Shown here: piece after piece, positions 27,314 through 61,096 of the stretch
Layout: every line of letters starts with the position of its first letter
Position numbering within the stretch: the stretch's first letter is position 1
From: a virus
Reading direction: 5' to 3' (one strand)
IMG/VR virus record: IMGVR_UViG_3300008448_000009
Span: 1-64,000 of that record
Length of the DNA stretch: 64,000 bases
Made by a program: the position numbers and the translations under genes
The notes under the pieces: model-generated
The model's database searches: none
What the model saw: only the letters and a program-made list of their open reading frames with translations
Told to the model about the DNA's origin: nothing

Positions 27314-29185
27314 TTAATTCCATAACAAACCATAACCATCCTCTTGTAACAAATAATCACCATCCTCTTGTAACAATAAATTGGTATCTAAAGGTCTATA
27401 TGTTGGTATTCCATCATTAAAGTTCTGTATAATGTTGCAATATTTTAACTCACAAATGTTAAACTTGAATTGTGAAATCGAACCAATAAAACTACCAGCA
27501 AAATTTGTTTCTATTGGCAGATTTCTATCGTTAGGGTCCAATCCATCAAATGTCTGACTTTCCAATAACCCTTGGGTACCACCACCTAAACTAAAGTTAA
27601 ACGGCACACCAACTTGTTTTGATTTATGTTCATCAAGTCTTCTAGCTATAAATTCGCTAAAATTGTCAAAAACTTGTTTAAGTTTACCATTAACATAAAC
27701 CATAAGTTTTCCTTTTCTTTTGTAAGCAGTCGTTAAATCACATTCTGATTTGTAATCAGTTACAAATTTAAGCACAATATAAGACCATACGTCTGTTTCA
27801 ACAGCTCCTGAAGGTGAATATCTTTCTTCTATAGTAACACCAGTAGCGTTAATTCTTTCACCGTTGATAGTTTCACATTTGCCAGTTACTGTTAATAATC
27901 TATAACCTATACTACCATCGTCTTTTATTCTAAAACCTATCGCATTATCTATTATGTCTAAATTATAATCAATGGTTTCTAACGGTGCTGTTCTACCACT
28001 AAACGAACATACTGTCTGATTACCTAACCCATCACCTGAACCAGAACATCTAGCACATCTACATCTACCAGGCTCCGCTTTACCATATATTAAAAATGGG
28101 TTTTGTTCATTTGTTAAACTTTTTCTAACTCTTCTTACAGCTATACCATCACCACTATAACTACATACAGTTTGACTACCCAAACCATCATTAGGTCCAC
28201 CACAACCTCTACAACCACAATTTAATGGGTTAACAGTTGTGCCAGTAGGTTCATCAATAACAACCAACCCAGTCTCACCAGTATACCTAGGTCCGTTATG
28301 TCCGTGACCTCTACCATATATCAAAAAATTATTGGTGATTACATCAATTTCTACCTGTGGTGGTGACAAAGGAATACCTATCTCATAATCACCTACCAAA
28401 GTAATATCTGTTTCTTTTGGTATTGTACACCATTCACTAACAGTTTCACCACTTGTACACGCGCTTGACGTACAATCACTAGTACACCCAGTGTCAGCCC
28501 CATAAAATTGATTCCAGAACTTGTTTTCTGCTCTGGTACCCATGTAGAAAAACATACCTTTATTATTAGGGTATAAATCGTTCAATGTTGTGCCAGTAGT
28601 AACTTCGTTAAATTCAGGTTTAATCCAAAATTCAGTACTCCACGAATTTTCAACCCTAGTAGGTAATAGTTCATATGTTGTCCCGTCTAATTTATAATAA
28701 CCTTGATAAAAACCACCTAAAAATTTAGCATAACTTCCACTTATAATATCTAGACCATAATCTATATCATAGTTTAAGTTGCTAGTTGTACCAGTAACTC
28801 TATTCATCACCAACCTAGTATCACCAGATGGTATAACCAACACAGATTCTGTCAAAGCTGACAACAACGCTTGATTTGTTGTGTCACCAGAAGTTTTATC
28901 AAAAGTAATCAAACCGTTATCAATACCCGTTAAACCAATAGTATTTAAAGTATAACCAGTATTGGTTGCTCCAGTCCACGAATAAAGACTGTAAATTGTA
29001 TCTTTGTCTCCGTTATTATAAATGTTTGAATTATTAAAATCATACCAAACAACAGAACAACTACCACTCAACAAAGCATCACAGTTACCACCACGGTCAT
29101 CGTTGGCCAAATAGAAATCCCAATAATCGCTTTTGGATAGTTTTAAGTCTAAATTGTTAAAGTTAAAATTTTTTATATTTCCCAT
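27314..29185 (-). CDS. Cys-rich virion protein with LamG/lectin-like domain
   Basis: This 623-aa protein has segments WSTEFWIKPEF (about 180-190) and KGKLMVYVNGKLKQVFDN (about 497-514), with the late GSFIGSISQFKFNICEL strand; these are hallmarks of a concanavalin/LamG-type jelly roll that often binds glycans. A Cys-rich stretch inserted within it (about 235-400) includes CGCRGCGG and CRCARCSG, each followed by DGLGxQTVCSxSG, so the insert is duplicated. The C-terminus repeats LLQEDG. Its stop/start overlaps the upstream SHAEG gene by one base (29185). A surface-exposed adhesin on the phage tail is likely. Confidence 0.68.
   Translation of the reverse strand: MGNIKNFNFNNLDLKLSKSDYWDFYLANDDRGGNCDALLSGSCSVVWYDFNNSNIYNNGDKDTIYSLYSWTGATNTGYTLNTIGLTGIDNGLITFDKTSGDTTNQALLSALTESVLVIPSGDTRLVMNRVTGTTSNLNYDIDYGLDIISGSYAKFLGGFYQGYYKLDGTTYELLPTRVENSWSTEFWIKPEFNEVTTGTTLNDLYPNNKGMFFYMGTRAENKFWNQFYGADTGCTSDCTSSACTSGETVSEWCTIPKETDITLVGDYEIGIPLSPPQVEIDVITNNFLIYGRGHGHNGPRYTGETGLVVIDEPTGTTVNPLNCGCRGCGGPNDGLGSQTVCSYSGDGIAVRRVRKSLTNEQNPFLIYGKAEPGRCRCARCSGSGDGLGNQTVCSFSGRTAPLETIDYNLDIIDNAIGFRIKDDGSIGYRLLTVTGKCETINGERINATGVTIEERYSPSGAVETDVWSYIVLKFVTDYKSECDLTTAYKRKGKLMVYVNGKLKQVFDNFSEFIARRLDEHKSKQVGVPFNFSLGGGTQGLLESQTFDGLDPNDRNLPIETNFAGSFIGSISQFKFNICELKYCNIIQNFNDGIPTYRPLDTNLLLQEDGDYLLQEDGYGLLWN
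27336..27376 (-). repeat. Two-copy 24-base tandem repeat at a gene end
   Basis: A 17-base identical segment (CCATCCTCTTGTAACAA on the plus strand) occurs at 27336-27352 and 27360-27376. It encodes the repeated LLQEDG words at the C-terminus of the LamG-like protein. Confidence 0.75.
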
Positions 29186-30909
29186 TAGTATCTAACCATT
29201 AATTGTCCTGTTGATGTTCTATAAACGGTACCAACTTCTAAACCACCAGAGGTTGCCGCTGCGTTATCAGCATATACAGCAAGGGTTTTTATATTTAATC
29301 TATCAACATATGTTGTATCGGGTACTGAACCATTTATGTTATCACCTAATACAATCGTGCTTTCAGTAAATGCTGTTGAAAAATTACCATGAACAAATGA
29401 ATAATCTCCAAACGCAACAGAAGAATTACCACCAACATGACTATCTCTTCCTCTAGCAGTATTATACTCACCTTCAGCATGACTTGCTAAACCAATAGTT
29501 ACATTACTAGCACCTTCAGCGTGACTAGATTGACCATAAGCTCTTGTTCCAGCACCTTCAGCGTGGGCTGTATAACCAGTAGCACGTGTATTAAAACCTT
29601 CAGCATGACTATAATTACCAATTGCTGTTGTTTCACCACCTTCAGCATGACTTCCACCACCTAAAGCAACACCACCTAAAACACCTAAAGCTTGAGAACC
29701 ACCTTCAGCATGACTACCTTCACCATCAGCTGTTGAGTAGTAACCTTCAGCGTGTGAATAATCACCACTAGCTGTTGTTTGTCGACCTTCAGCGTGACTC
29801 GCTTTGCCACTAGCAGTACCACCAGAAACCAATAAAGAATACACACCACCCTCAGCGTGTGACCCTTCACCACTAGCTAATGATTTATAACCTTCAGCAT
29901 GACTACCATAATCACCACTAGCTATTGTGTAATTACCTTCAGCGTGACTATTAATCCCACTAGCCGTTGTCCAACCACCTTCAGCATGGCTACCTTGATT
30001 ACTAGCTGTTGTAGCGCCACCTTCAGCATGACTTCCAGTTCCGCTAGCTAATGTATTGGCACCTTCAGCGTGTGAATAATCGCCAATTGCTTGTGAATTA
30101 CTACCTTCAGCATGGCTAATATATCCACTAGCTGTGGTAAAAGCACCTTCAACATGACTATTGTTACCAGAAGCTAATGCGTTATATCCAGATGCTACAG
30201 AATAATTTCCAGAAGCTATTGAATTGTAATTCTTAGCGGCTATAGAGTATGTGCCAGTACCAGAAGACCATAATATTGAACCGCCACTTATTGTAACACC
30301 AGTAACAGCTTCCCATTTAGCCATACCTTCACTAGTGTAACATGTCAATACGTAACCAATTTGAGGTGCGTTAGTAACTATAAGTCTTTCAGTTCTAGTA
30401 ATACCAGAAACATCTACCCATATTGTTCTACCAGTGTAGTCTAAACTAGTAGCTGAATAAGTTGTCAAATCCAAAGTTTCAACGGTACCGCTATAATTAC
30501 CACCACCTAAATCATAGAAAGCTATAGGTGTTATATCAAAAGTAACTCCAGTATAAAACAATCCAACGGTGTTTCCGTCAATAACAGTGGTTGTTTCAGC
30601 CGAAAAAACTGGTTCTTCAATAAGTTGAGTAGTTGCGGATAAAGATGGTGTTATCGCTGAAAGATAAGGTTCACCAATAGCCATTATTGGGTCATACCAA
30701 TTATAAATAGTTGTTGTACCGTTGCCTGAAAATGTACTAGCTAGCGTTGTGTATGTTTCTGTGTCTCCGCTAGTTTCCAAATTTGGGCCACTAGTCAACG
30801 CACTGAATGTTAACCCAAATGATGTACCACCAGATAAAATTGTGTGAGATTTCTCAAATTGCTTTATTTGTCTATTGTCTGAATAATCTAATTTTGTTCT
30901 AAAAGCCAT
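29185..30909 (-). CDS. SHAEG-repeat fibre protein
   Basis: This 574-aa paralog of the 1469-aa SHAEG fibre has an N-terminal about 230-residue region (KLDYSDNRQIKQFEKSHTIL start, then TGVTFDITPIAFYDLGGG) that differs from the long one. It then carries about 16 SHAEGxxTTASG units, including longer variants (GGVYSLLVSGGTASGKA), and a cap region nearly identical to the long paralog (VGGNSSVAFGDYSFVHGNFS). It ends with LEVGTVYRTSTGQLMVRY, a common fibre end. It is predicted as a trimeric beta-roll fibre. It is the first gene of the leftward fibre operon and is preceded by a late-type promoter in a divergent pair. Confidence 0.8.
   Translation of the reverse strand: MAFRTKLDYSDNRQIKQFEKSHTILSGGTSFGLTFSALTSGPNLETSGDTETYTTLASTFSGNGTTTIYNWYDPIMAIGEPYLSAITPSLSATTQLIEEPVFSAETTTVIDGNTVGLFYTGVTFDITPIAFYDLGGGNYSGTVETLDLTTYSATSLDYTGRTIWVDVSGITRTERLIVTNAPQIGYVLTCYTSEGMAKWEAVTGVTISGGSILWSSGTGTYSIAAKNYNSIASGNYSVASGYNALASGNNSHVEGAFTTASGYISHAEGSNSQAIGDYSHAEGANTLASGTGSHAEGGATTASNQGSHAEGGWTTASGINSHAEGNYTIASGDYGSHAEGYKSLASGEGSHAEGGVYSLLVSGGTASGKASHAEGRQTTASGDYSHAEGYYSTADGEGSHAEGGSQALGVLGGVALGGGSHAEGGETTAIGNYSHAEGFNTRATGYTAHAEGAGTRAYGQSSHAEGASNVTIGLASHAEGEYNTARGRDSHVGGNSSVAFGDYSFVHGNFSTAFTESTIVLGDNINGSVPDTTYVDRLNIKTLAVYADNAAATSGGLEVGTVYRTSTGQLMVRY
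29329..29632 (-). repeat. Near-identical block shared with the giant SHAEG gene
   Basis: Partner of 17335-17641; see that entry. It lies in the same orientation, about 12 kb away. Confidence 0.8.
29430..30162 (-). repeat. SHAEG tandem-repeat array (short gene)
   Basis: About sixteen in-frame units of 42-45 bases, with two units lengthened by short Gly/Leu-rich insertions. Confidence 0.8.
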
Positions 30910-33500: not shown

Positions 33501-33528
33501 AAAAAAGGGGTTTAATAACCCCTTTTTT
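33501..33528 (+). terminator. Intrinsic terminator
   Basis: AAAAAAGGGGTT (33501-33512) and AACCCCTTTTTT (33517-33528) pair perfectly around TAAT and end in a T-run. It closes the 30971-33500 operon directly after its last stop codon. Confidence 0.85.
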
Positions 33529-35301: not shown

Positions 35302-35853
35302 ATGTCTTTAACACAAGAAAAAATCCTTGCTAACACAAAAAAATATTTTGAGACAGCAAAAAATAATGATTTCATGACTGATGAACTTATGACTTTCTTA
35401 GGTGAAAGTTTTATAAAAGCTCCAGCATCAACAATGGATTCTTTACATAACGCTTTTGAAGGTGGTCTAATTGACCATTTATTAAGAGTTGCGTTTTACG
35501 CTGTAAGATTCAATAACTCATTACCAGACGACAAAAAAGTAGACCAAAAAAGTCTTCTTAAAGTTTGTTTGCTACACCAAATCGGTAAAGCTAATCTTTA
35601 TGTTGACGGTCCAGAATGGGCAAAGAAAAACGGTAAACATTACGATTTCAACAACTTATTGGTTTCAATGAGAGTTAGTGAAAGAAGTATTTACTATGCA
35701 ACATCTAATGGAGTTACTTTCACAGAAGAAGAATTTGGCGCTATTCTAATGTCAGATAAATCAGATGACAAACAAGCAGAATACCATAATTCAACTTTGG
35801 GTGATTTGTTAAAAATGTCTAACTTATTTGCAATTAAACACGAGAAAAACTAA
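35302..35853 (+). CDS. HD-domain-like protein with altered metal motif
   Basis: Residues about 45-175 of this 183-aa protein follow an HD hydrolase layout: EGGLIDHLLRVAFYAVRF, then KVCLLHQIGKANLY, then later VSERSIYYATSNGVTFTEEE. The classical HD pair is here His-Gln (LLHQIGK), so the second metal ligand is missing; catalytic activity is doubtful, and a binding or sensing role is possible. Similar HQ variants occur in other Bacteroidota phages as I recall, so it may be a conserved family. It is the first gene after the host-type promoter and overlaps dUTPase by one base. Confidence 0.65.
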   Translation: MSLTQEKILANTKKYFETAKNNDFMTDELMTFLGESFIKAPASTMDSLHNAFEGGLIDHLLRVAFYAVRFNNSLPDDKKVDQKSLLKVCLLHQIGKANLYVDGPEWAKKNGKHYDFNNLLVSMRVSERSIYYATSNGVTFTEEEFGAILMSDKSDDKQAEYHNSTLGDLLKMSNLFAIKHEKN

Positions 35854-36438: not shown

Positions 36439-38085
36439 ATGGTAACAGTAGTATATTGTACAAGAGAAACAAAGCCAGAACATAGAGAACACTTGATTAA
36501 GTCTTCTGGGCTTCATAAACACATTGAGGTGATAGAAATCATCAACAATGGTGAATCACTAACCAAAGCGTATAATCGTGGCTTAAAACAAGCTAAAAAC
36601 AATATTGTGGTTTTTTGTCATGATGATTTAACTATTGAGACAAAACAATGGGGTAATAAATTAACCAAACTATTTGATAAAAACCCAAAGTTTGGTATCA
36701 TTGGTGTTGCTGGTAGCAAAAACATGCCAGAGTCTGGTCAATGGTGGGAAAACAGAAGTAAAATGTATGGTCGCGTACAACACACGCACGAAGGCAAAAC
36801 TTGGTTATCAAGTTATTCTGAGGACTTAGGTCAAGAACTTGAAGAAGTTGTTGTTTGTGATGGTGTTTGGTTTGCTGTTGATAAGACAAGGTTAAAAAAA
36901 GAATTTAATGAACAAGTTGAAGGATTTCATTTTTATGACGTAACTTTTGCTTTTGAAAACTATCTACAAGGTGTTAAAGTTGGGGTAACTACTGCTATTA
37001 GAATCAATCACCAATCTATCGGTATGACCAACGAAGCGTGGGAAAAAAACAGAGCTGATTTCTCTGAAGCTTTCCAAGCATTCTTACCAGCAAACGTAAA
37101 GAAAACACTTAGAAAAGGTCAAAAACTTAAAGTACTTATTGGCTGTTTAAGTTTTGCTAATTATACTGGTTCAGAACTATACGTTTTTGAGCTAGCCAAA
37201 CAACTAATTAAACAGGGTTGTGATGTTTCTGTATGTTCAAGTATTGGAGAACCTTTATTATCTGCTGCAAATAAACTAGGTGTTAAAATGTATAGTATAC
37301 AAGAACCACCTGGTTTTAAACTAGGTGATGGTAAATGGATGTTAAAATCGCCACAAGGTGATGTAGTATCACAACCAAACACACTGTACAAAGTTAGTGA
37401 TGTAAATTTTGATGTAATTCATTTAAACCACAAACCAGTTACAGAACATTTATTAAGATTCTATCCAGAAACACCTGTAATCTGTTCTATACATTCAGAA
37501 GTAATCTCTTTAGAAGAACCAGTTATTTCCCCACAAATAAAACAATACATAGCTATTAGACCAGAAATTAAAGAACACATCGTGGAGACTTTTGGTGTTG
37601 ATAAAGATTTGGTTAGTGTTATCTACAACCCAATTGATGCTGATAAATTTAAAGTGGTTAACACAACTGAAAAAAGAAATAAAAAAAGAATACTTTTTGT
37701 CGGTACTATTGATTATCTTAGAAGAAACACAATTCAAGATTTGATAAATGTTACTCGAGAAAACAACCAAGAACTTTGGATTGTTGGGAAGAAAAACGAT
37801 ACGTATTTAGATGATATGATAGCCAACGAACCACATGTAACATATTATGAACCTACATCTAATGTTGAAAAATTCATTCATCAATGTGATGAAACCGCTG
37901 GGATACTTTTAGGTAGAACAACTATTGAAGGTTGGATGTGTGGTAAATCTGGTTGGATTTACAACGTTGATTCTACTGGAATTATATTGTCAAAAGCATT
38001 GCATGAAGTACCTACAGACGTTGATAAATTTAACAGCAAAAACATAACAACCCAAATAATTGAAGAATATAAAAAAATATTATAA
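36439..38085 (+). CDS. Two-domain glycosyltransferase (GT2-like + GT4-like)
   Basis: This 548-aa protein looks bifunctional. Residues 1-215 are a GT-A domain: VTVVYCTRETKPEHREHLI, then VVFCHDDLTIET with the HDD metal site (about 56-58), then EGFHFYDVTFAFENYLQGV as the catalytic-base region. Residues about 225-548 are a GT-B domain: LKVLIGCLSFANYTGSELYV (TGSE phosphate-binding-like), KRILFVGTIDYLRRN as the second Rossmann start, and LLGRTTIEGWMCGKSGW near the nucleotide-sugar site. Such fusions add two sugars in sequence. It overlaps the next gene by one base. Confidence 0.82.
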   Translation: MVTVVYCTRETKPEHREHLIKSSGLHKHIEVIEIINNGESLTKAYNRGLKQAKNNIVVFCHDDLTIETKQWGNKLTKLFDKNPKFGIIGVAGSKNMPESGQWWENRSKMYGRVQHTHEGKTWLSSYSEDLGQELEEVVVCDGVWFAVDKTRLKKEFNEQVEGFHFYDVTFAFENYLQGVKVGVTTAIRINHQSIGMTNEAWEKNRADFSEAFQAFLPANVKKTLRKGQKLKVLIGCLSFANYTGSELYVFELAKQLIKQGCDVSVCSSIGEPLLSAANKLGVKMYSIQEPPGFKLGDGKWMLKSPQGDVVSQPNTLYKVSDVNFDVIHLNHKPVTEHLLRFYPETPVICSIHSEVISLEEPVISPQIKQYIAIRPEIKEHIVETFGVDKDLVSVIYNPIDADKFKVVNTTEKRNKKRILFVGTIDYLRRNTIQDLINVTRENNQELWIVGKKNDTYLDDMIANEPHVTYYEPTSNVEKFIHQCDETAGILLGRTTIEGWMCGKSGWIYNVDSTGIILSKALHEVPTDVDKFNSKNITTQIIEEYKKIL

Positions 38086-39032
38086 TGAGTGTGATAGAAT
38101 GGTTTAAAAGGAAAGTTGCTGTAGTGTCATTAGCTTTAAGCAACGTTGAAAAAGGCGCGTTGACGCAGACTGGTGAAGGTTTATCTAGTGATGTAACACA
38201 TAGTCAAAGACTTAGTCAAGGTCAAGTTGCTGATTCATTGATAAATGGTGAAGTAACTCAAGAAGTGCTTAATCTTAAATGGAGGACATATAAGGTTTTG
38301 AAAGCCACTGAAGGTCTTACAGCTGAAATAGTTGGTTATGATAAGGATGGTATGCCTATAGTTAAAACTCAAAAAAGAAGCAAGAAAAAAGGTCTTAAAA
38401 AAGTAAACTTAGATACTATCGATAACTATGTGTTAGAGATGGTTGTCGACAATAGTGAGATAGTATTATCTGGAAGTCAAGCTATGGATAACGAACATAT
38501 TAGTTTATTAGATGAGGTTATGTTAAATGATGGTGAGATTGGACAAACAGCTACTCATGGTAGTATTGATTCTGACGAATATTTTATAACTAGTAAAACT
38601 GAACGACCTATAAAAATTGGTAGAGACACATTACCAAATTTTTACATAGAAAATTTTGCCAAGAAATTAAACGTAAGAAAAATTAATAAAAACAAAAGAT
38701 TATTAGAATTCTACGTTAGCAAATATGTTAACGAAGACAATAGAACTAGTAGATTATTTATTAGCGCTATTAAAAAAGTTATGAGCGGTAACACACAAAA
38801 ACAAAGTTTTATAGAACTTAAAGATGTGGAATTTGTTACTTACAAAAGTTTAGGTGTTGAAGATTATTTGGAGTTTAAATACGATATAGAATCTTTTGAT
38901 AAAATAATTGAATTTAACGGATTCTATGTGATAAAATTTGTTGCCAAAGTCACTACTAACGGTAAATACCTTTTTGAAGAACATAGAGTAGATGAGTTAG
39001 ATAAAAAATACGAACAAAAAGCTAAAAAATAA
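38085..39032 (+). CDS. Protein of unknown function in the glycosylation island
   Basis: No family is recognised for this 315-aa protein. The N-terminal amphipathic stretch (SVIEWFKRKVAVVSLALSN), a Lys-rich patch (KTQKRSKKKGLKKVNLD, about 95-111) and a mixed alpha/beta C-terminus can be seen, with no transmembrane helix. One-base overlaps on both sides place it tightly within the glycosyltransferase operon, so it may assist that pathway, but a virion role is equally possible. Confidence 0.55.
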   Translation: MSVIEWFKRKVAVVSLALSNVEKGALTQTGEGLSSDVTHSQRLSQGQVADSLINGEVTQEVLNLKWRTYKVLKATEGLTAEIVGYDKDGMPIVKTQKRSKKKGLKKVNLDTIDNYVLEMVVDNSEIVLSGSQAMDNEHISLLDEVMLNDGEIGQTATHGSIDSDEYFITSKTERPIKIGRDTLPNFYIENFAKKLNVRKINKNKRLLEFYVSKYVNEDNRTSRLFISAIKKVMSGNTQKQSFIELKDVEFVTYKSLGVEDYLEFKYDIESFDKIIEFNGFYVIKFVAKVTTNGKYLFEEHRVDELDKKYEQKAKK

Positions 39033-39655
39033 TGGTTGATTTAAAAAAATATTTTGATAGAATTTATGTAATCAACCTAGACAGACGACCAGATAGGTTA
39101 GAGAAATTTAATCTAGAGCTTGATAAGTTCGGAATTACCGATGTTGAAAAATTTTCAGCGATTGACGGAACAACTATTTCACCAAATAATAACACTTTGT
39201 TAGCTGGTGAAATAGGTGTTTTAATGTCACATCTAGAAATAATTAAAAAATGTCATTCTGAAGGGGTTAAAAATGTTTTAATATTAGAAGATGATGTGTT
39301 TTTCACTGATGAAATAAAAAAGTTAGATGAATATATGTTAGAAGTCCCTAAAGATTGGGATTTTATTTATTTTGGTGGAAACCATGTTTACGGGGCTGCA
39401 CCAACGAAAATATCAGATAAAGTGCTTAAATTAAATTTTACAGTAGCTTTACAATGTGTTGCGATAAACAATACATTATTTGAAACCATCATGGCTATTT
39501 TACCTAAAATGGGTAAACAAGTTGATGGTTATTACGCACAATTACATAACGTCTACAATGCTTATGGGTTTTATCCTAATATGGCAAAACAAGTTGCTGG
39601 TTTTAGTGACATCCAAAATAGGAACGTAGACTATTCAGGGTTTTTTAAAGATTAA
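39032..39655 (+). CDS. GT25-family glycosyltransferase
   Basis: In this 207-aa protein the N-terminal FDRIYVINLDRRPDRLEKF (about 8-26) and EIGVLMSHLEIIKKC (about 68-82) are the signature of family 25, which includes LPS beta-1,4-galactosyltransferases; LILEDDVFF (about 89-97) is the acidic metal/donor site. DWDFIYFGGNH follows. The acceptor is unknown. One-base overlaps with both neighbours indicate coupled translation. The family's typical role in LOS/LPS assembly hints that host surface glycan is the target. Confidence 0.88.
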   Translation: MVDLKKYFDRIYVINLDRRPDRLEKFNLELDKFGITDVEKFSAIDGTTISPNNNTLLAGEIGVLMSHLEIIKKCHSEGVKNVLILEDDVFFTDEIKKLDEYMLEVPKDWDFIYFGGNHVYGAAPTKISDKVLKLNFTVALQCVAINNTLFETIMAILPKMGKQVDGYYAQLHNVYNAYGFYPNMAKQVAGFSDIQNRNVDYSGFFKD

Positions 39656-40480: not shown

Positions 40481-41092
40481 ATGCTATTAAACTTAGACAA
40501 TTTAAAAGAAAAATATGACCTTAAAATTAAAGGTATATTACACATTGGTGCTCACGTTGGTCAAGAATATAACACATACCAAAGATTAGGTATTGATAAC
40601 GTAATGTTCTTCGAACCAGTACCATCAACATTTCAAAGACTAAAAGAAAATGTTGGTGATAACGCAATTTTACATAACACTGCTTTAGGTAATATTGAAG
40701 GTGAAGTTGAAATGTTTACTGAAACTATAAACGAAGGACAATCTAGTTCTGTTTTACAACCAGACTATCATTTGGTGCAACACCCAAATATTCAATTTGA
40801 TGGGAAAGAAACTGTTAAAATAACAAAGTTAGATAATTTTATTGAAGATAAAGATAAATATAATTTCATCAACGTAGACGTTCAAGGTTATGAACTAGAA
40901 GTTTTTAAAGGTGGTTCTGAATTTTTAAATTCCATTGATTATATCATGACTGAAGTAAACCGAGCTGAACTTTATAAAGGTTGTGCTAGAATTGAAGAAT
41001 TAGATACTTTCCTAAGTGAATATGGTTTTGAAAGAGTTGAAACAACTTGGGATGGTGGAACATGGGGAGACGCTTTTTATGTTAAAGGATAA
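40481..41092 (+). CDS. FkbM-family methyltransferase
   Basis: This 203-aa protein is a SAM-dependent methyltransferase of the FkbM type: GILHIGAHVGQEYNTYQRLG (SAM-binding loop, about 18-37), VMFFEPVPSTF (acidic ribose-binding Glu), NFINVDVQGYELEVFKGG (about 130-147, the family hallmark DVxGYExxVLKG). FkbM enzymes often O-methylate sugars. It is one of three such genes in the island. Its 3' end overlaps the GT10-like gene. Confidence 0.87.
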   Translation: MLLNLDNLKEKYDLKIKGILHIGAHVGQEYNTYQRLGIDNVMFFEPVPSTFQRLKENVGDNAILHNTALGNIEGEVEMFTETINEGQSSSVLQPDYHLVQHPNIQFDGKETVKITKLDNFIEDKDKYNFINVDVQGYELEVFKGGSEFLNSIDYIMTEVNRAELYKGCARIEELDTFLSEYGFERVETTWDGGTWGDAFYVKG

Positions 41093-41888
41093 ACTATACA
41101 TACATGATAGAATGTTTTCTCACGCAAAATCTAGTAGTGGGCACAATGAACCAGAGCTATTTGAATGGGTTAGAAAATATGATGAAGACCATTTAATTTT
41201 AACTGACTTTTCATTAACGGAAGTTGATAAGTTTATCAACCCTAAAAAATATGGTTGGCTATTAGAATCACCAGAAATAACACCTAATGCTTATCAATAC
41301 ATAGCTAAAAATTACGATAAATTTGATATGGTTTTTACGTTTAGTAAAGAGCTACTCAAAATATCTGATAAATTTGTTTTAATACCCTACGGTGGTTGTT
41401 GGATTGATGTGGAAGATAGAATGATTTATGAAAAATCAAAAAATGTTTCTATTATCCTATCAGCAAAACAAACAACAGTAGGTCATAGACTTAGACATAC
41501 AGTTTTAAAAACTTTTCCAGCGTTAGACAATTTCGGGTTTAACAATCCAATTGAAAAAAAGATTACAGCGTTAAAAGATTATCGTTTTTCAATTGTAATT
41601 GAAAACTGTCAAAAAGATTATTATTTTAGTGAAAAATTGATTGATTGTTTTATGACTGGTACAATACCAATTTATTGGGGCTGCCCATCTATTGGTGAAT
41701 TTTTCGACACCAATGGAATGTTGATAATAAATAACGTTGATGATTTAGAAGCAGCGATAAAATCTTTAAGTGAAAAACTCTACGCTTCGAAATTGGAATC
41801 AATCAAACATAATTTTGAAGTGGCTAAAAAATATTTGGTCGCTGATAACATCATATACAATAAATTAAAAGAATATGAAGGTAGTTAG
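41079..41888 (+). CDS. Fucosyltransferase-like glycosyltransferase (GT10 type)
   Basis: I chose ATG 41079 for this 269-aa protein, overlapping the upstream FkbM gene by 14 bases; an earlier in-frame ATG (41016) would lie inside that gene, and ATG 41112 is a shorter option. Residues about 166-205 (YRFSIVIENC, DYYFSEKLIDCFMTG, TIPIYWGCPSIGEFF) match the GT10 alpha-1,3-fucosyltransferase signature (YKFxxxxENSxxxxYVTEKxxxxxxxxxxPVYxG). GT10 enzymes use GDP-fucose, and the pathway for it lies a few genes downstream. Substrate identity is inferred. Confidence 0.75.
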   Translation: MLKDKLYIHDRMFSHAKSSSGHNEPELFEWVRKYDEDHLILTDFSLTEVDKFINPKKYGWLLESPEITPNAYQYIAKNYDKFDMVFTFSKELLKISDKFVLIPYGGCWIDVEDRMIYEKSKNVSIILSAKQTTVGHRLRHTVLKTFPALDNFGFNNPIEKKITALKDYRFSIVIENCQKDYYFSEKLIDCFMTGTIPIYWGCPSIGEFFDTNGMLIINNVDDLEAAIKSLSEKLYASKLESIKHNFEVAKKYLVADNIIYNKLKEYEGS

Positions 41889-42558
41889 TTTCTCACTATA
41901 CGGTGATAACGTGATTTACACTGTTGGTTGTATAAAAAACGCCATATTAATGGAGGATTACTTCAAAGATTGGGAAATGTGGGTTTACCATAATGATTCG
42001 GTACCTAGCTTTATTCTGGAAGAGCTTCAAACTCTAGGTGTGCATCTTATCAATACACATGAAAATAATGGGTTTTTGGGTTCCCTTTGGCGTTTCAGAC
42101 CAATCATGGACCAACAGGTTGAATACTTTATATCTAGGGATTGTGATTCAAGGATTAGTTTGCGTGATGAAACCGCTGTCAACGAATGGATTGAGTCTGG
42201 AAAAAGTTTCCACATTATAAGAGAACACCCTATTGGTCACGGTTGGGTTATCAACGCTGGAATGTGGGGTGCCAAGGGTGGTTCAATCCAAAACTTTTCA
42301 GAGTTAATGAGTGCTTACTTGCAAAAAAATAATAGGACTGGTGATAAGACCGTAGACCAATGTTTTTTGAGAGATATTATTCACCCGATTGTGGTTAATG
42401 ATTTGTTTCTACATGATGAGTTCTTCAACTACGAAGGTATTGGGACTCACATAAAAAGAGATAGAAACTTAGACAATTTTGCTTTTATTGGTGAGTCAGT
42501 AGATGAAAATAATTTTCCTAGGGGTGACCAAAGGACTAGTATAAGACAAAGATATTAA
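41875..42558 (+). CDS. Probable GT-A glycosyltransferase
   Basis: This 227-aa protein has an N-terminal strand VVSFSLYGDNVIYTVGCIKN, VEYFISRDCDSRIS with a DCD metal-binding triad (about 82-95), and HPIGHGWVINAGMWGAKGG resembling the donor-site loop of GT8/GT32-type enzymes. Catalytic specificity is unknown. It overlaps the GT10-like gene by 14 bases and is followed by another GT-A gene after one base. Confidence 0.68.
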   Translation: MKVVSFSLYGDNVIYTVGCIKNAILMEDYFKDWEMWVYHNDSVPSFILEELQTLGVHLINTHENNGFLGSLWRFRPIMDQQVEYFISRDCDSRISLRDETAVNEWIESGKSFHIIREHPIGHGWVINAGMWGAKGGSIQNFSELMSAYLQKNNRTGDKTVDQCFLRDIIHPIVVNDLFLHDEFFNYEGIGTHIKRDRNLDNFAFIGESVDENNFPRGDQRTSIRQRY

Positions 42559-42559
42559 A

Positions 42560-43288
42560 ATGAAAATAGATTACGCAATAATGGGGTCAAATATGAACCC
42601 AATGTATTTGGATTTCTGGCCAATTATTTCTAAGACTTGGAAAGAGGTTTTTAACATAACACCAGTATTAGGTTTGATATGTGATGAGGATTCCGATTTT
42701 ATTGAAGATGAATATGGATTGGTTAAAAAGTTTAAAGCAATCGAAGGTATCGACACAGGTCTTCAATCACAAATAATTAGATTGTATCTGGCTAAAGAAC
42801 TTAGTGGTAACATTGTGATTAGCGATATTGATATGGTGCCGCTATCAAAACAATACTTTATTGACCAAGTAGTTGGTTTTGATTCTTTAAAAATATATGT
42901 TATGAGTTCTGATAATGCGGAATGCAATAACAACAAGGAAATCCCGATGTGTTACAACATTTCAGATTCTCAGCTTTTCGCTAGAATGTTACAATTAGAC
43001 AACACTTGGGTAGATTTCGCCAATAGGTTAAACTCTATGGGTTTTGGTTGGACTACAGACCAAAACTATCTATGGCTTAAGATGCAACAATTCAAGGAGC
43101 AAAACCCAGATTCTGTTGTTTTATTGAGCCGAGGTTGGCCACGTGGGGCCGATAGACGAATAGACCGTTTATGGTGGTCATATGATGCTAATTTGGTTAA
43201 TTCTGGTTACTACATTGATTCACATTTATTAAGACCATATAAACAACATAAGTCACAAGTTGACACACTTATTAATTTGTTGTACTAA
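42560..43288 (+). CDS. Probable GT-A glycosyltransferase
   Basis: This 242-aa protein has a DID triad in NIVISDIDMVPLSKQYF (about 89-105), the expected place for a metal/nucleotide-sugar site, and a later FGWTTDQNYLWLKMQ (TDQ motif as in GT8/GT14-like enzymes). The start is an amphipathic YAIMGSNMNPMYLDFWP. No homolog is named with confidence. One-base overlap with the exostosin-like gene. Confidence 0.65.
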   Translation: MKIDYAIMGSNMNPMYLDFWPIISKTWKEVFNITPVLGLICDEDSDFIEDEYGLVKKFKAIEGIDTGLQSQIIRLYLAKELSGNIVISDIDMVPLSKQYFIDQVVGFDSLKIYVMSSDNAECNNNKEIPMCYNISDSQLFARMLQLDNTWVDFANRLNSMGFGWTTDQNYLWLKMQQFKEQNPDSVVLLSRGWPRGADRRIDRLWWSYDANLVNSGYYIDSHLLRPYKQHKSQVDTLINLLY

Positions 43289-44043
43289 TGGAATTTATCA
43301 CTGGTAACAAGTTTAAACGAGCTTGTCACTATTCTCTAGATGAGAAAGGATTTGTAAAACACTCAGAACCAATAAACGGTGAAACGTTAAGAATATTTGT
43401 TAAGATTGATTATGTGTATTCGTTTTTTACTATAAATATTGAAACACCATATATTTTATTTACACACAATGGGGATTTACCAGTAGATGATAATTACTTG
43501 CGTTACATGGATAACCCTAACCTGTTAAAATGGTGTGGTCAAAATATTATGACGCAACACCCTAAGCTTTCATCAATACCAATCGGTTTAGGTAATGAAA
43601 TTTGGTCTCACGGTGACGAAAAAGTTTTTAGTGAAGTCATAGACCAGAACCTACCAAAAGAACGTCTTATATATGTTAATTTTGATGTTAACACCAATAG
43701 ACGTGAACGCAATTATTGTTTAAACGAATTAAACCAAAAAGGGTTTCAAATGGGTGATAAACTTCCTTTTAAAGAATATTTACAAGAAGTGGCTAAAAGT
43801 TATTTTGTCGTATCACCCAACGGTAACGGTGTTGATTGTCATAAAACTTGGGAAGCATTGTATTTGGGTACAATACCAATCGTGACAAAATCAATCAATA
43901 TTGGGTTTTACAATGATTACCCTATGGTAGTTATAGATTCGTGGTCAGATTTTGACCCATCATCGTTTTCAATAGAGCTTTACCAAAAATTATGGTCAGA
44001 TTTTGACCAAACAAAAATTGATGTTAATTATTTTATCAAATGA
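43288..44043 (+). CDS. Exostosin-like glycosyltransferase
   Basis: In this 251-aa protein, about residues 160-205 (KSYFVVSPNGNGVDCHKTWEALYLGTIPIV, longer than quoted) match the C-terminal signature of exostosin/GT47-type and related transferases: FVxSPxGxGxDxHRxWExLxxGxIPIV. The N-terminal half has a HNGDLPVDDNYLRY and the SSIPIGLGNEIW strand that fits the same fold. It ends in an ATGA junction with the next gene. Substrate unknown. Confidence 0.72.
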   Translation: MEFITGNKFKRACHYSLDEKGFVKHSEPINGETLRIFVKIDYVYSFFTINIETPYILFTHNGDLPVDDNYLRYMDNPNLLKWCGQNIMTQHPKLSSIPIGLGNEIWSHGDEKVFSEVIDQNLPKERLIYVNFDVNTNRRERNYCLNELNQKGFQMGDKLPFKEYLQEVAKSYFVVSPNGNGVDCHKTWEALYLGTIPIVTKSINIGFYNDYPMVVIDSWSDFDPSSFSIELYQKLWSDFDQTKIDVNYFIK

Positions 44044-44828
44044 AAAAAGTATTAGTGATTATTTCGGATGGAAATTATTTAGAGCATGCAAAATCATTGT
44101 TTTCAAATGTTAAAAATGAAGGCAAATGGGATGGGGACTTATGTCTTATTGCCAATAACTTGGATGGTCATGATTTGTCTGATTTTGAGAAATTCGGGGT
44201 TAAAATCTTACACAGAAATTGCGACAATAAATTCAGAATAAACCTACATGTTTTTGACATATATTTTAAACAATGGGATTATGTTATTTACATGGATTGT
44301 GATTTTATGGTATTTAAAGATTTGAATAAATTCTTAGACAAATACGATACTAATTTTATCGGGTTACTGGCAGATATTGAACCATTTAAAATAAAAGACT
44401 ACCTATGTCAAGGTTGGGATTTGGGTAACAAAAATTCTTCACTATCAAAACTAGAGGGGAAATATGATTTAAACAAAAACGGTTTTAACGCTGGTTTCTT
44501 CTCATTCAACACAAAAGTAATCAATAAAGATACGTTAAATGAGTTGTTTGGTTTAGAAAATGAAATTAAAGACGTAAACAATCATATCATACCAACTGGT
44601 AGTGACCAACCAATCTTTAATTTGTACTTTATTGATAAAGTTGAGTATATACAAAATAACGACATTTGTTATTGTGGTTTGATAAGCGAAGAAACAACTG
44701 CTGCTCATTTTTGTGGTGGTGATAGACCTTGGACCCGTAACGAATTTTCAAATTCGTTTAATATGACATTTAAAGAAAAATATGACGAAAATTTAAACAG
44801 GTTTTATGAGTGTATCAATAAATTATAG
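44040..44828 (+). CDS. GT8-family glycosyltransferase
   Basis: This 262-aa protein shows the GT8 (glycogenin/LgtC-like) layout: start KKVLVIISDGNYLEHAKSL, metal site VIYMDCDFMVF (Asp-x-Asp, about 80-90), NGFNAGFFSFNTKV (the NAG loop, about 146-159), GSDQPIFNLYF (DQ motif, about 189-199) and AHFCGGDRPW (C-terminal HxxGxxKPW-like, about 225-234). GT8 enzymes are retaining transferases common in LPS core synthesis. Its 3' end overlaps the GT11-like gene by 23 bases. Confidence 0.88.
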   Translation: MKKVLVIISDGNYLEHAKSLFSNVKNEGKWDGDLCLIANNLDGHDLSDFEKFGVKILHRNCDNKFRINLHVFDIYFKQWDYVIYMDCDFMVFKDLNKFLDKYDTNFIGLLADIEPFKIKDYLCQGWDLGNKNSSLSKLEGKYDLNKNGFNAGFFSFNTKVINKDTLNELFGLENEIKDVNNHIIPTGSDQPIFNLYFIDKVEYIQNNDICYCGLISEETTAAHFCGGDRPWTRNEFSNSFNMTFKEKYDENLNRFYECINKL

Positions 44829-45567
44829 TGGTAGGTTAGGTAACAATTTGTTCCAATATGTCGCTGCGTATATCTTTGCTAAAAAATTTAATCTAAAAAT
44901 ATCGTCTGGTGTTGTGGAGAATAAATTTGATTTGCCTTTGTTGACTGGTGAAGAAACTGGTGGGCCAATCATCGATGTTGATGATTCTAATTTCATGAGG
45001 TTATTGGAATCGGAAAGTATCACACCAGCTCATTATCGTTTTGTTGGTTATTATCAAAATAGAGATTTTATCTTAAAAAATAGAGATGAAATAAAGTCGC
45101 TATTTAATTTAACCTTTACCGATACACCAAATGACCAAGTATTTGTCGCGTACAGAATTGGTGATATAAACGGTGAAAGACAAATGTTACCAATTGAATA
45201 CTACAGGGAAGCCTTACAAAACATTCGTTGTCACGATGGTTATATCACTTCAGACACACCAGACCACCCTAATGTTTTGCAATTAGCAAACGAATTTAAT
45301 TTAAAGATTTATAATGAATCACCTTTAGAAACTATTGATTTTGCCAAAAATTTTAATAACTTGGTGTTGAGTGAAGGAAGTTTTAGTTGGTGGATTGGTT
45401 TTCTTAGTAATGCTGAAAACATTTATTACAACGAAAGACCTAGATTCTGGCATGGAGATATATTTGTTCTACCAGAATGGAAGGGGTTAAAATATGACTG
45501 GTGTCCAACATGTGTCGGACATAATAATATGTTAAAATGTAACAAAATAATAAATAATAATATATGA
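44806..45567 (+). CDS. GT11-like alpha-1,2-fucosyltransferase
   Basis: In this 253-aa protein, GRLGNNLFQYVAAYIFAKKF (about 9-28) is the N-terminal signature of family 11; VFVAYRIGD (about 110-118, the HxRxxD-type motif region, here Y-R-x-G-D), LPIEYYREAL, TSDTPDHP (about 150-157) and LVLSEGSFSWWIGFLS (about 190-205, the SxSTFSWWxA-like block) follow. GT11 enzymes transfer fucose from GDP-fucose. The canonical His of the HxRRxD motif looks replaced by Tyr, so activity should not be taken for granted. It overlaps the GT8 gene upstream and overlaps the next FkbM gene by 4 bases. Confidence 0.78.
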   Translation: MSVSINYSGRLGNNLFQYVAAYIFAKKFNLKISSGVVENKFDLPLLTGEETGGPIIDVDDSNFMRLLESESITPAHYRFVGYYQNRDFILKNRDEIKSLFNLTFTDTPNDQVFVAYRIGDINGERQMLPIEYYREALQNIRCHDGYITSDTPDHPNVLQLANEFNLKIYNESPLETIDFAKNFNNLVLSEGSFSWWIGFLSNAENIYYNERPRFWHGDIFVLPEWKGLKYDWCPTCVGHNNMLKCNKIINNNI

Positions 45568-46193
45568 AAATAGCTTTTGATATTGGTGCAAATATAGGTC
45601 AAACTGTTGACGAACTATTACCTAATTATGATAAAATAATTTGTTTTGAACCAAACCCAAGTCTTGTAACCGTTATTAAAAATAAATTTTTTAATAATGA
45701 TAAAGTTACTATTGAAGAATTAGGATTATCGGATAAAACAGAAACTAAAAAATTTAATATTTCAAACTCACATGTTGTGTCAACATTTTCTGAGGATTGG
45801 ATAAATAACTCCAGATTCACCAATGTTTATAATTGGGATACATCAATAGATGTTAAAACAACAACATTAGATGAAGTTATCGATAAATACGGTATCCCAT
45901 ATTTTATAAAAATAGATGTTGAAGGTTATGAATATGAAGTATTAAAAGGGTTGACAAAACTATTAGACAACACTTATTTTGCTTTTGAATGGGCTGAAGA
46001 ACAATATGAAATAGTGAATAAAACTGTTAAATATTTAAAAGAGTTAGGTTACAACAATTTCTCATACACATATCAAGATAGTCTATTAAATTTAGAAAAT
46101 ATTAATTGGTGTAATTGGGAAGATTTAACCATACATAATGACATAAACAAAGACCGAAAAGAAAAGTGGGGTATGATTTACTTTAAAAAATAA
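45564..46193 (+). CDS. FkbM-family methyltransferase
   Basis: This 209-aa protein has MKIAFDIGANIGQTVDELL (SAM-binding loop at the very N-terminus), IICFEPNPSLV (acidic ribose contact), TTLDEVIDKYG, then FIKIDVEGYEYEVLKGL (about 114-130), all hallmarks of FkbM. It probably O-methylates a sugar hydroxyl of the glycan being built. Its ATG overlaps the preceding stop. Confidence 0.88.
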   Translation: MKIAFDIGANIGQTVDELLPNYDKIICFEPNPSLVTVIKNKFFNNDKVTIEELGLSDKTETKKFNISNSHVVSTFSEDWINNSRFTNVYNWDTSIDVKTTTLDEVIDKYGIPYFIKIDVEGYEYEVLKGLTKLLDNTYFAFEWAEEQYEIVNKTVKYLKELGYNNFSYTYQDSLLNLENINWCNWEDLTIHNDINKDRKEKWGMIYFKK

Positions 46194-46196
46194 AAT

Positions 46197-46832
46197 ATGT
46201 TTAATAATTTTAATATAGAAACAAATGGCGAAATATTTTTCGTAAACAAAATCAAAGATGAAATTGATATTATTTTTGATATAGGTAGTAGAGATGATAG
46301 TTTATTTTTAAGTTTTGAAAAGGAAGTTCATTATTTTGAACCAGTACCAAATTTTTTAGAAGAATTAAAACAAAAAAATAACAAAAATAAAAAATCTTTT
46401 TTTAATGCTTTTGGGTTATCTGACACCGATACGGTATTACCATATTACGTAAATTTTCAATCTTTCGTAGATAGGTCTAACTCACAAGGTAGTTCGTCAA
46501 AAATAGAATTAATAGTTAAAAAAGCTATAGATTATATAAACGATAACGGAATAAATAATATAGGTTTAATTAAAATAGACACTGAAGGTTTCGAATTAAA
46601 TGTTATGAAAGGGTTTGGTGAAAAGCTAAATATTGTTAAATACATTCAGTTTGAATACGGTGGAACATATTTAGACAAAGGGTTAAAATTAATAGACGTT
46701 GTTAACTATTTGAAAAATCATGGTTTTGATGATTTTTCATATTTAGGTGGTGAAGTTTTAACACCTATAACTGATTTTACCGACCATTACAATTACTCAA
46801 ACATAGTTTGTAAAAATAAAAAATATGAATAA
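46197..46832 (+). CDS. FkbM-family methyltransferase (divergent)
   Basis: This 211-aa protein follows the same layout as the two FkbM genes upstream: DIIFDIGSRDDSLFLSF (SAM loop with RDD replacing the usual GxxGxx), VHYFEPVPNFLEEL, then NIGLIKIDTEGFELNVMKGF (about 120-139). The SAM loop is divergent, so activity may be altered. The 3' end overlaps the Gmd gene by 8 bases. Confidence 0.78.
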   Translation: MFNNFNIETNGEIFFVNKIKDEIDIIFDIGSRDDSLFLSFEKEVHYFEPVPNFLEELKQKNNKNKKSFFNAFGLSDTDTVLPYYVNFQSFVDRSNSQGSSSKIELIVKKAIDYINDNGINNIGLIKIDTEGFELNVMKGFGEKLNIVKYIQFEYGGTYLDKGLKLIDVVNYLKNHGFDDFSYLGGEVLTPITDFTDHYNYSNIVCKNKKYE

Positions 46833-47802
46833 AACAGCTTTAATCATTGGCGCCAACGGTCAAGATGCGTCATACATGGCAGAATTCCTTATAGAAAAAG
46901 GATACGTTGTACATGGGACTATTAGAAGAAATTCTGTTCCAGAATCACAAACAACTAGAATCGAGCATTTACGTTCACAAGATTTAATAACACTTCATTA
47001 TATGGACCTTACAGACCCTATTAGTGTTGAGTCAATCATCAATGAATTGAAACCAGATGAGATTTATCATTTAGCAGCTCAATCACATGTTCAAATTAGT
47101 TTTGAATTACCTAAATATACTTTGGATGTTAACGCTGGTGGTACACTAGCTGTATTAGAAGCGGTTAGAAAATTCTCACCTAAATCAAAAATTTATCACG
47201 CAGCGACTTCAGAAATGTTTGGGAACCAATCTGACCAAGATTATTTTCAAAGAGAAACTACTAAAATGATTCCAGTATCACCATATGGTTGTAGCAAGTT
47301 GTATGCACATAGTCTTTGCCATAACTACAGAAATTCATATAATATGTTTATTAGTTCTGGTATATTATTCAACCACGAGAGCCCTAGAAGAGGGATAAAT
47401 TTTGTTACTAACAAAGTAGTGCTTGAAGCTGTAAAGATTAAACTAGGGCTCTCTAATGAGCTTGTATTGGGTAATCTAGACGCTATGAGAGATTGGGGTC
47501 ACGCAAAAGACTATGTTGAAGGTATGTGGTTGATGCTACAACAAGAAAAACCAAATGACTATGTGTTAGCCACTGGGATTTCAAATAAAGTTAGTGATTT
47601 GGTTGATTATGTTTTTGGTAAATTAGAGTTAGGCCAAGAAAAATATGTTAAATTAGATAAAAAATTTGAACGAGCAGAAGAATTACACTATCTAAGAGGT
47701 GACGCCACTAAAGCTAAAACAGAATTGGGTTGGCAACCTAAATATACTTTCGAAAGTATGTTAGACGAAATGATAGAATATTGGTTAAATAAATTAAGTT
47801 AA
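46825..47802 (+). CDS. gmd: GDP-mannose 4,6-dehydratase
   Basis: Converts GDP-D-mannose to GDP-4-keto-6-deoxymannose, the first committed step of GDP-L-fucose synthesis (NADP-dependent). This 325-aa short-chain dehydrogenase has a Rossmann start IIGANGQDAS (residues 7-16; the third glycine of GxxGxxG is Ala15), the catalytic Thr128-Ser-Glu in AATSEMFG (126-133), Tyr154-x3-Lys158 in SPYGCSKLYA and GILFNHESPRRG (179-190), a family signature. It is followed after 2 bases by the synthase that completes the pathway. GDP-mannose itself must come from the host or from genes outside the window. Confidence 0.92.
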   Translation: MNKTALIIGANGQDASYMAEFLIEKGYVVHGTIRRNSVPESQTTRIEHLRSQDLITLHYMDLTDPISVESIINELKPDEIYHLAAQSHVQISFELPKYTLDVNAGGTLAVLEAVRKFSPKSKIYHAATSEMFGNQSDQDYFQRETTKMIPVSPYGCSKLYAHSLCHNYRNSYNMFISSGILFNHESPRRGINFVTNKVVLEAVKIKLGLSNELVLGNLDAMRDWGHAKDYVEGMWLMLQQEKPNDYVLATGISNKVSDLVDYVFGKLELGQEKYVKLDKKFERAEELHYLRGDATKAKTELGWQPKYTFESMLDEMIEYWLNKLS

Positions 47803-47804
47803 TT

Positions 47805-48740
47805 ATGGGAAATTTATTAGTTACAGGTGCCAACGGTTTAGTTGGTTCACAATTTAAAGGTGATTTAATTCAAATCACTTCAAAACATGGTGATTTAAAA
47901 AACCCTAAGACTATTGATAGTCTTTTACATTTTTATGCTGATAAAGAACTTAGAAAAGAACACGCTGTGGATAGAATCATACACTGTGCTGCCAAAGTTG
48001 GTGGAGTTGGTGGAAACATGAAATATAAAGGTGAATTTTTTTACGATAACATTATGATTAACACCAACGTAATTGAATCAGCAAGACAACACGGTGTTAA
48101 AAAATTAGTAGCGTTCCTATCTACATGTGTTTTTCCAGACAACGTAGAATACCCTTTAACTGAATCTAAAATACACTTAGGGCCACCACATTTTTCAAAT
48201 GATGCATATGCCTACGCAAAACGTATGGCAGAAGTTCAAATAAGAGCTTATAGAGAACAATATGGGTTAAACTATACGTCAGTAATACCTACAAACATTT
48301 ATGGTCCTAACGACAACTTTAACATAGAAAACGGACATGTTATTCCATCATTAATACACAAATGTTATTTAGCAAGAGAAAACAACACAGATTTAACTAT
48401 TTGGGGTTCTGGAAAACCACTTAGAGAATTCATATACTCTAAAGATGTTGCCGAACTAGCGTTGTGGGTTTTAGAAAACTATGATGAACCAGAACCAATT
48501 ATTTTATCGACATCACAAGAGATATCAATTAAAGATGTTGTTGGTGTTATTGTTGATGCTATGAATTTTAAAGGTAATGTTATTTTTGATAAAACAAAAC
48601 CAGACGGACAATTTAGAAAACCTAGTGATAACTCAAAGTTAATGAGTTATTTACCAGATTTTAAGTTTACACCTTTTGATGTTGGTATAAAAGAAACGGT
48701 AGAATGGTTTGAGAAAAACTATCCTAACATAAAACAATAA
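47805..48740 (+). CDS. fcl: GDP-L-fucose synthase
   Basis: Epimerises and reduces GDP-4-keto-6-deoxymannose to GDP-L-fucose (NADPH). This 311-aa protein keeps the residues known from E. coli Fcl, offset by one: Ser106 and Cys108 in LSTCVFPD, Tyr135-x3-Lys139 in AYAYAKRMAE, and His178 in ENGHVIPSL. The N-terminal VTGANGLVGS is the NADP loop. Conservation of the active site argues for a working enzyme. With gmd directly upstream it gives the phage its own route from GDP-mannose to GDP-fucose, used by the GT10- and GT11-like enzymes upstream. Confidence 0.92.
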   Translation: MGNLLVTGANGLVGSQFKGDLIQITSKHGDLKNPKTIDSLLHFYADKELRKEHAVDRIIHCAAKVGGVGGNMKYKGEFFYDNIMINTNVIESARQHGVKKLVAFLSTCVFPDNVEYPLTESKIHLGPPHFSNDAYAYAKRMAEVQIRAYREQYGLNYTSVIPTNIYGPNDNFNIENGHVIPSLIHKCYLARENNTDLTIWGSGKPLREFIYSKDVAELALWVLENYDEPEPIILSTSQEISIKDVVGVIVDAMNFKGNVIFDKTKPDGQFRKPSDNSKLMSYLPDFKFTPFDVGIKETVEWFEKNYPNIKQ

Positions 48741-60373: not shown

Positions 60374-60400
60374 AAAAAAAGGGCCATATGGCCCTTTTTT
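60374..60400. terminator. Bidirectional intrinsic terminator
   Basis: A perfectly palindromic GC core GGGCCATATGGCCC flanked by A and T runs, lying between the stops of convergent genes 59366-60346 (+) and 60399-61043 (-); the stop codon of the minus-strand gene abuts it. Confidence 0.88.
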
Positions 60401-61043
60401 ATTGTATTGTTAAATCCATTTTATTTAACTTGAACATATCGTTCAAATCTTTTAATGTGGTTGGTGTAATTAATCCGTTTATATTAGAACCAATCCAACA
60501 TTGTGTAGTACCGTTGATAAATAATACCTTAAAAAATGCTGATGGAATTGGAATTCTAGATTTACCCATATACTTTTTATTCTTAGGGTCATATATGACA
60601 CCAGTGATAATAACAACATCTTGTTTTGACTCAGCAATTATATCTTCAACATCACCTTCCATTTGGGCCCATTTACCTCTATTGAAACCAGCCAATTGTG
60701 GCGCTGCGTTGAACAAGCTAAAAGATTTATGGTTCAAATTATTATCATAAGATGTGATATGTGACGGTGTCAAATGACCAATATCATAACCAGTTTTTAA
60801 ATACGCGTCTTTATAGTATTTACCTTTGTACGTATCTTGAAACCAACGGTTGTCTCGCTCTTTATCTAGCTTTAGAAAGCTTGAATATTTTAAAACATGT
60901 TTGGATACCAAAGCGCAAGTATCTTTAGTTAAATACAACGTAATGTCTCCGTGGTTTATGATTAGTTTGTTGTCTGTTTTTACGGTCTGTGAAAACATGG
61001 TCATTGTCATGAACAATGTTATAAGTAAAAATATTTTCTTCAT
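60399..61043 (-). CDS. Secreted DNA/RNA non-specific endonuclease
   Basis: I chose ATG 61043 for this 214-aa protein; a TTG at 61067 would extend the frame but lies inside the promoter/terminator region. Residues 1-19 form a signal peptide (KKIFLLITLFMTMTMFSQ). The core carries the NUC1 DRGH-type motif as YDIGHLTPSH (catalytic His90, with Ile replacing the usual Arg) and FNAAPQLAGFNRGKWAQMEG (Asn121, Trp125, Glu129 region). It would degrade nucleic acids in the periplasm or outside the cell. A phage gene for a secreted nuclease lying directly after the capsid gene is unusual. A weak late-like motif precedes it. Confidence 0.85.
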   Translation of the reverse strand: MKKIFLLITLFMTMTMFSQTVKTDNKLIINHGDITLYLTKDTCALVSKHVLKYSSFLKLDKERDNRWFQDTYKGKYYKDAYLKTGYDIGHLTPSHITSYDNNLNHKSFSLFNAAPQLAGFNRGKWAQMEGDVEDIIAESKQDVVIITGVIYDPKNKKYMGKSRIPIPSAFFKVLFINGTTQCWIGSNINGLITPTTLKDLNDMFKLNKMDLTIQ

Positions 61044-61057
61044 ATCTATAAATATCC
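61041..61057 (-). promoter_or_regulatory. Weak phage late-type promoter motif
   Basis: Minus strand GGATATTTATAGATATG runs directly into the nuclease ATG (61043-61041). It keeps ATATTTATA of the late motif but lacks its A-rich tail and leaves no leader, so it may be functionless. Confidence 0.3.
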
Positions 61058-61065
61058 TATAAAAC

Positions 61066-61096
61066 AAAAAAGGCCACCGTAATGGTAGCCTTTTTT
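61066..61096 (-). terminator. Intrinsic terminator downstream of the major capsid gene
   Basis: AAAAAAGGC (61066-61074) pairs with GCCTTTTTT (61088-61096), with ACC/GGT pairing inside around one mismatch and a GTAAT loop. On the minus strand it ends in a T-run just after the capsid stop codon (61115), and so would reduce read-through into the nuclease gene. Confidence 0.82.

Follow-up and report, generated by a model that had tools for sequence, protein, structure and literature searches.

A probable phage glycan-decoration operon with a GT10 fucosyltransferase and a divergent GT11-like glycosyltransferase

Can a phage make its own fucose donor and attach the sugar with two different enzymes? 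This question is raised by a gene cluster in the virus record IMGVR_UViG_3300008448_000009 of IMG/VR, in which a gene of glycosyltransferase family 10 (GT10, 41079–41888) and a GT11-like gene (44806–45567) lie upstream of gmd and fcl. We analyzed positions 1 to 64,000 of this record (hereafter, the window), which has 119,281 bases in total. The original prediction described both genes as members of one operon with gmd and fcl and read them as a means of placing fucose at two positions; the observation was confirmed and the interpretation partly supported. We consider it reasonably probable that this is a phage glycan-decoration operon that makes guanosine diphosphate (GDP)-L-fucose, and that the GT10 enzyme, and probably the GT11-like protein, transfer fucose to an acceptor made in the cytoplasm.

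The GT10 enzyme and the supply of GDP-fucose

Profile, fold, and active-site residues together firmly predict that the open reading frame (ORF) at 41079–41888 encodes a GT10 fucosyltransferase. Its match to PF00852 passes the curated cut-off narrowly (24.3 versus 23.9 bits), and the Helicobacter pylori alpha-1,3-fucosyltransferase (HpFucT) is matched at E=4.6e-10 with the single sequence and at E=1.6e-16 with a profile. The predicted structure adopts a GT-B fold, with a predicted local distance difference test (pLDDT) score of 96.5, and its first fold matches are FUT9 and HpFucT. Across 59 GT10 homologues, there is no variation at E63, R139, E175, N176, E185, or K186 and almost none at Y182. 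The donor-site residues N240, Y246, E249, and K250 of HpFucT, whose roles have been described (PMC7826918), align with phage N176, Y182, E185, and K186. The hhalign comparison places E63 and R139 on a Glu and an Arg of bacterial GT10s, which we infer to be the catalytic E95 and the phosphate-binding R195 in HpFucT numbering. The phage protein thus has the donor-site motif and GT-B fold of HpFucT (PDB 2nzw/2nzy), although identity is ~16% over the structural alignment and the phage protein is shorter. Comparison with three relatives gave ratios of nonsynonymous to synonymous substitution (dN/dS) of ~0.10–0.17, with synonymous sites near saturation. In the mechanism we propose, the enzyme would transfer fucose with inversion, with Glu63 acting as the base and Arg139 and Lys186 holding the diphosphate.

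The donor for this reaction would come from the same set of genes. The gmd product aligns over nearly its full length with the solved GDP-mannose 4,6-dehydratase 1n7g (E=2.7e-94), and scores 374.9 bits against TIGR01472, below the equivalog cut-off of 415. The fcl product aligns to a similar extent with the solved GDP-L-fucose synthase 4e5y (E=9.5e-98), including the STC, YxYAK, and GHV positions, and scores 238 bits against NF047922, below the equivalog cut-off of 500. Together, Gmd and Fcl would convert host GDP-mannose into GDP-L-fucose. All junctions from the gene at 35853 through fcl overlap or leave gaps of at most 4 nt on the same strand, so these genes likely form one operon, as had been proposed. 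The two transferase genes are not adjacent in the window, being separated by four genes that start at 41875, 42560, 43288, and 44040. Around the operon, patterns resembling promoters or terminators are about as frequent as expected from shuffling and do not set the operon ends; a strong hairpin at 33501–33528 is the exception. Searching the remainder of the 119-kb record turned up no additional GT10, GT11, gmd, or fcl gene.

Motif, fold, and donor of the GT11-like protein

The protein encoded at 44806–45567 is probably related to GT11 and would work like it. It matches PF01531 at 27.0 bits (curated cut-off 23.9) and phrog_2644 at E=2.5e-8. Both this ORF and that of GT10 are present with all four motifs quoted in the original prediction on the plus strand, and their matches exceed chance. 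Like GT11 alpha-1,2-fucosyltransferases such as WbsJ and FutC, the protein has intact GxGNxxFQ (GRLGNNLFQY) and SFSWW motifs, together with the first Arg (Arg117) and the Asp (Asp120) of motif I. Unlike them, it reads VFVAYRIGDI where HxRRxD is expected: the His is gone, as was noticed at the outset, and the second Arg is missing too. We label it GT11-like rather than a canonical GT11 because motif I is incomplete. In a tree, 19 mostly viral sequences, including the window protein, form a deep separate clade (support 100/99), and this phage-dominated clade without HxRR is the most distinctive part of the system.

Loss of the His had been taken to cast doubt on the activity of the protein. Three lines of evidence indicate that it is poor evidence for inactivity. 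First, among 275 homologous GT11-type ORFs (near-copies included), the first Arg of motif I is present in every one. A review singles out this residue as critical (PMC4202792), and POFUT1 cannot do without its equivalent, Arg240 (PMC3180450). Second, the His is absent from 40 of these ORFs and kept in 235; the second Arg is found in 195. Third, dN/dS between the GT11-like gene and three relatives is ~0.09–0.13, with synonymous sites near saturation, which points to purifying selection within the window's own clade and speaks against decay, not for a particular activity. A catalytically dead protein, retained as a partner or binding protein, would be in keeping with the motif-I alignment, which places the loss of the His inside the window's own clade: the residue is kept in relatives L098, L014, L015, and L172 and gone in the window protein, L004, L093, L094, L017, and L013; none of these has the second Arg. 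We nevertheless find this reading very improbable, given the same counts and selection, the retained Arg and Asp120, and the intact GRLGNN and SFSWW motifs.

The predicted structure is less decisive about the donor. The model (pLDDT 91.2) has a GT-B fold, and Foldseek returns the heptosyltransferase WaaC first, followed by AtFUT1, FUT8, NodZ, and POFUT1, with E-values within ~20-fold of one another. The comparison with known folds that the original prediction suggested bore out its GT10 half, with GT-B folds for both proteins; for the GT11-like half, fucosyltransferases were matched, but behind WaaC. This fold speaks for a GT-B enzyme, not for a particular donor. A profile match to FUT8 is weak (E=2.2e-5), and a PDB search with the single GT11-like sequence gave nothing relevant.

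Several observations weigh against our overall reading of the operon. The Pfam scores of both transferases barely exceed their cut-offs, the GT11-like protein keeps only one of the three basic residues of HxRRxD, and the top match to its fold is an adenosine diphosphate (ADP)-heptose transferase, which makes its donor uncertain. Gene content among relatives adds to this, with the proviso that their records may be fragments: within the clade, L013 (73 kb) and L153 (289 kb) show no gmd, several members have neither gmd nor fcl, and in L004 (51 kb; gmd at 5752–6765) and L014 (166 kb) gmd is present and fcl was not found. In the latter two phages, fcl may be supplied by the host, or a different Gmd product may be used. 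These records, the WaaC match, the lost His and second Arg, and the depth of the clade would all suit an arrangement in which only GT10 uses GDP-fucose and the GT11-like protein uses, for example, GDP-mannose, a Gmd-derived GDP-deoxyhexose, or a heptose donor. We judge this alternative unlikely. The WaaC match is non-discriminating, in that the nearest folds of POFUT1 likewise include an ADP-heptose transferase (PMC3180450), and the PF01531 match lies above its cut-off. Moreover, the GT11-like gene directly abuts or overlaps gmd in L004 and L005, and in L017 fcl comes directly after it, with gmd next; because relatives place the gene against gmd or fcl, GDP-fucose is likely its donor. The GT11-like protein would then be a second GT-B transferase of the operon, probably using GDP-fucose through Arg117.

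Recurrence of GT10/GT11 pairs

A search with the GT10 alignment gave 80 viral loci, of which 52 were left after removal of near-identical copies. A GT11 gene lies within 10 kb of GT10 in 32 of these 52 and directly beside it in 17. Random placement predicts 4.1, and 1000 trials gave 11 at most; this null assumes independence of the loci, which holds only in part. FkbM genes are also enriched next to GT10 (11 versus 2.9 expected). Crowding of glycosyltransferase genes was considered as the sole cause of the pairing and rejected: GT25, present at 28 of the 52 loci, adjoins GT10 in 4, versus 4.2 expected, and thus shows no excess. Overlaps of 4 to 16 nt, counting from the most upstream possible starts, are seen in many pairs, and either gene order is found; the huge phage LR756504 has the two genes side by side. 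Besides the divergent GT11-like gene, two close relatives carry a canonical HxRRGD GT11 gene just upstream of GT10 (L094, 8597–9412; L098, 8566–9390). Among bacteria, the nearest GT11-like gene (41% identity) is on a 12.3-kb contig of a Chitinophagaceae metagenome-assembled genome (L172), along with two GT10 matches and gmd; this contig may really come from a phage and have been binned with bacterial DNA.

The pair therefore recurs in phages and is already annotated in named ones, so the present operon is a good example rather than a new arrangement. Synechococcus phages S-SCSM2R and S-T4 encode a GT10 homologue 38–41% identical to that of the window, clustered, as here, with an annotated GT11/alpha-1,2-fucosyltransferase and nucleotide-sugar epimerases. 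They differ in being cyanomyoviruses with cyanobacterial hosts and other neighboring genes, and their GT11 genes were not retrieved by tblastn with the window GT11-like protein. S-SCSM2R also has an annotated wcaG RNA, whereas an Rfam scan of the window found no family at threshold, neither wcaG nor another RNA. The T4-like cyanophage S-SCSM1 shares with the window a GDP-mannose dehydratase, a GDP-L-fucose synthase, and several annotated fucosyltransferases; these are named as O-fucosyltransferase, alpha-1,2, and NodZ types, and GT10 is not among them (PMC9602691). A more distant parallel is A111/114R of chlorovirus PBCV-1, a virus-borne fucosyltransferase with GT10-like donor-site residues and further transferases, which differs in that the virus infects a eukaryotic alga and the domain proposed to be the fucosyltransferase is one of three in a protein that acts on capsid glycans (PMC7826918). 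More tentatively, the mostly phage clade may use a single motif-I Arg in place of HxRR, and phages may repeatedly pair GT10 with GT11-type genes, often overlapping, so that glycans of virions or infected cells become doubly fucosylated.

The operon, its product, and the phage

The remaining genes of the operon (Table 1) bear on which glycan is made. The protein at 43288–44043 scores close to threshold against the C-terminal domain of RXYLT1, a eukaryotic xylosyltransferase, and is kept in relatives of the phage. The GT10 and GT11-like enzymes, together with this protein, the GT8 and GT25 transferases, and three FkbM-type methyltransferases, would assemble or cap an oligosaccharide that is fucosylated and probably methylated. 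A scan of ten operon proteins, which was not a systematic search, recognized no flippase, polymerase, or initiating transferase, and this fits decoration of a pre-existing acceptor. Such an acceptor would be made in the cytoplasm and could be a virion protein or a precursor of a host surface glycan; here we infer both the acceptor and the linkages.

Table 1. Genes of the operon region with window coordinates and the evidence for each assignment
Feature	Position	Strand	Evidence
Two-domain glycosyltransferase (GT2-type + GT4-type)	36439..38085	+	PF13712, 116 bits; PF13439, 54.7 bits
GT25 glycosyltransferase	39032..39655	+	PF01755, 57.9 bits
FkbM-type methyltransferase, directly 5' of GT10; 14-nt overlap with GT10	40481..41092	+	PF05050, 68 bits
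GT10-type fucosyltransferase, 269 residues, ATG start; predicted catalytic Glu63, Arg139, Asn176, Tyr182, Glu185, Lys186	41079..41888	+	Profile, fold, residues
Unassigned operon protein; 14-nt overlap with GT10	41875..42558	+	Pfam, PHROG, NCBIfam: zero matches
Unassigned operon protein	42560..43288	+	Pfam, PHROG, NCBIfam: zero significant matches
RXYLT1/GT47-like putative glycosyltransferase	43288..44043	+	PF24785, 26.9 bits, just under cut-off 27
GT8 glycosyltransferase; 23-nt overlap with GT11-like	44040..44828	+	PF01501, 41.4 bits
Divergent GT11-like glycosyltransferase, 253 residues; motif I VAYRIGD (Arg117 kept), GRLGNNLFQY, SFSWW	44806..45567	+	PF01531, phrog_2644
FkbM methyltransferase	45564..46193	+	TIGR01444, 91.9 bits
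FkbM-like methyltransferase	46197..46832	+	phrog_8156, E=2.5e-7
gmd, GDP-mannose 4,6-dehydratase	46825..47802	+	TIGR01472; solved GMD 1n7g
fcl, GDP-L-fucose synthase	47805..48740	+	NF047922; solved synthase 4e5y

The original prediction went on from the two families to alpha-1,3/4 and alpha-1,2 linkages, as in Lewis-type structures. The classical linkages of GT10 and GT11, with both types in one operon, speak for such fucosylation of a host glycan. This step was not supported: family does not fix linkage, since HhFT2 of H. hepaticus is a GT11 enzyme that forms alpha-1,3 links, as cited in PMC4202792. Nothing points to an N-acetyllactosamine-type acceptor, and the GT8, GT25, RXYLT1-like, and methyltransferase genes suggest a different glycan, so we give the Lewis-like reading hardly any credence.

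The virus is a T4-like phage, probably of a Bacteroidota host. Its T4-type major head protein, gp20 portal, prohead protease, and T4-type terminase mark it as a T4-like myophage. The host is likely from Bacteroidota because the nearest relatives of the major capsid protein are Flavobacterium phages vB_FspM_immuto (38% identity), and because the leaders before the start codons of the operon are AT-rich and show no evident Shine-Dalgarno sequence, an absence that is usual in Bacteroidota. Elsewhere in the window, the minus strand encodes very long tail-fibre-like proteins with repeated SHAEG...TTASG units (16484–20893 and 29185–30909) and a small protein (60399–61067) whose start is signal-peptide-like and which contains a DIGHLTPSH stretch; by eye only, this protein resembles a secreted DNA/RNA non-specific nuclease. 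Two proteins are of note in the remainder of the record (L252, 13844–16258, and L253, 703–3216): one contains seven DUF285 stretches, and the other is a ClpB-like AAA chaperone that has an N-terminal Clp domain.

If the operon works as we propose, the phage would make GDP-fucose by itself and use two unrelated enzymes to place fucose on its particles or its host, probably combined with methylation, as an example of viruses that carry their own sugar-coating machinery. With the divergent GT11-like clade, one could test directly which HxRRxD residues are truly needed, and the clade is a source of compact enzymes for making fucosylated oligosaccharides. That GT10 recurs with GT11 across many phage lineages suggests selection for such fucosylation in phages, a theme little described in the literature we found.

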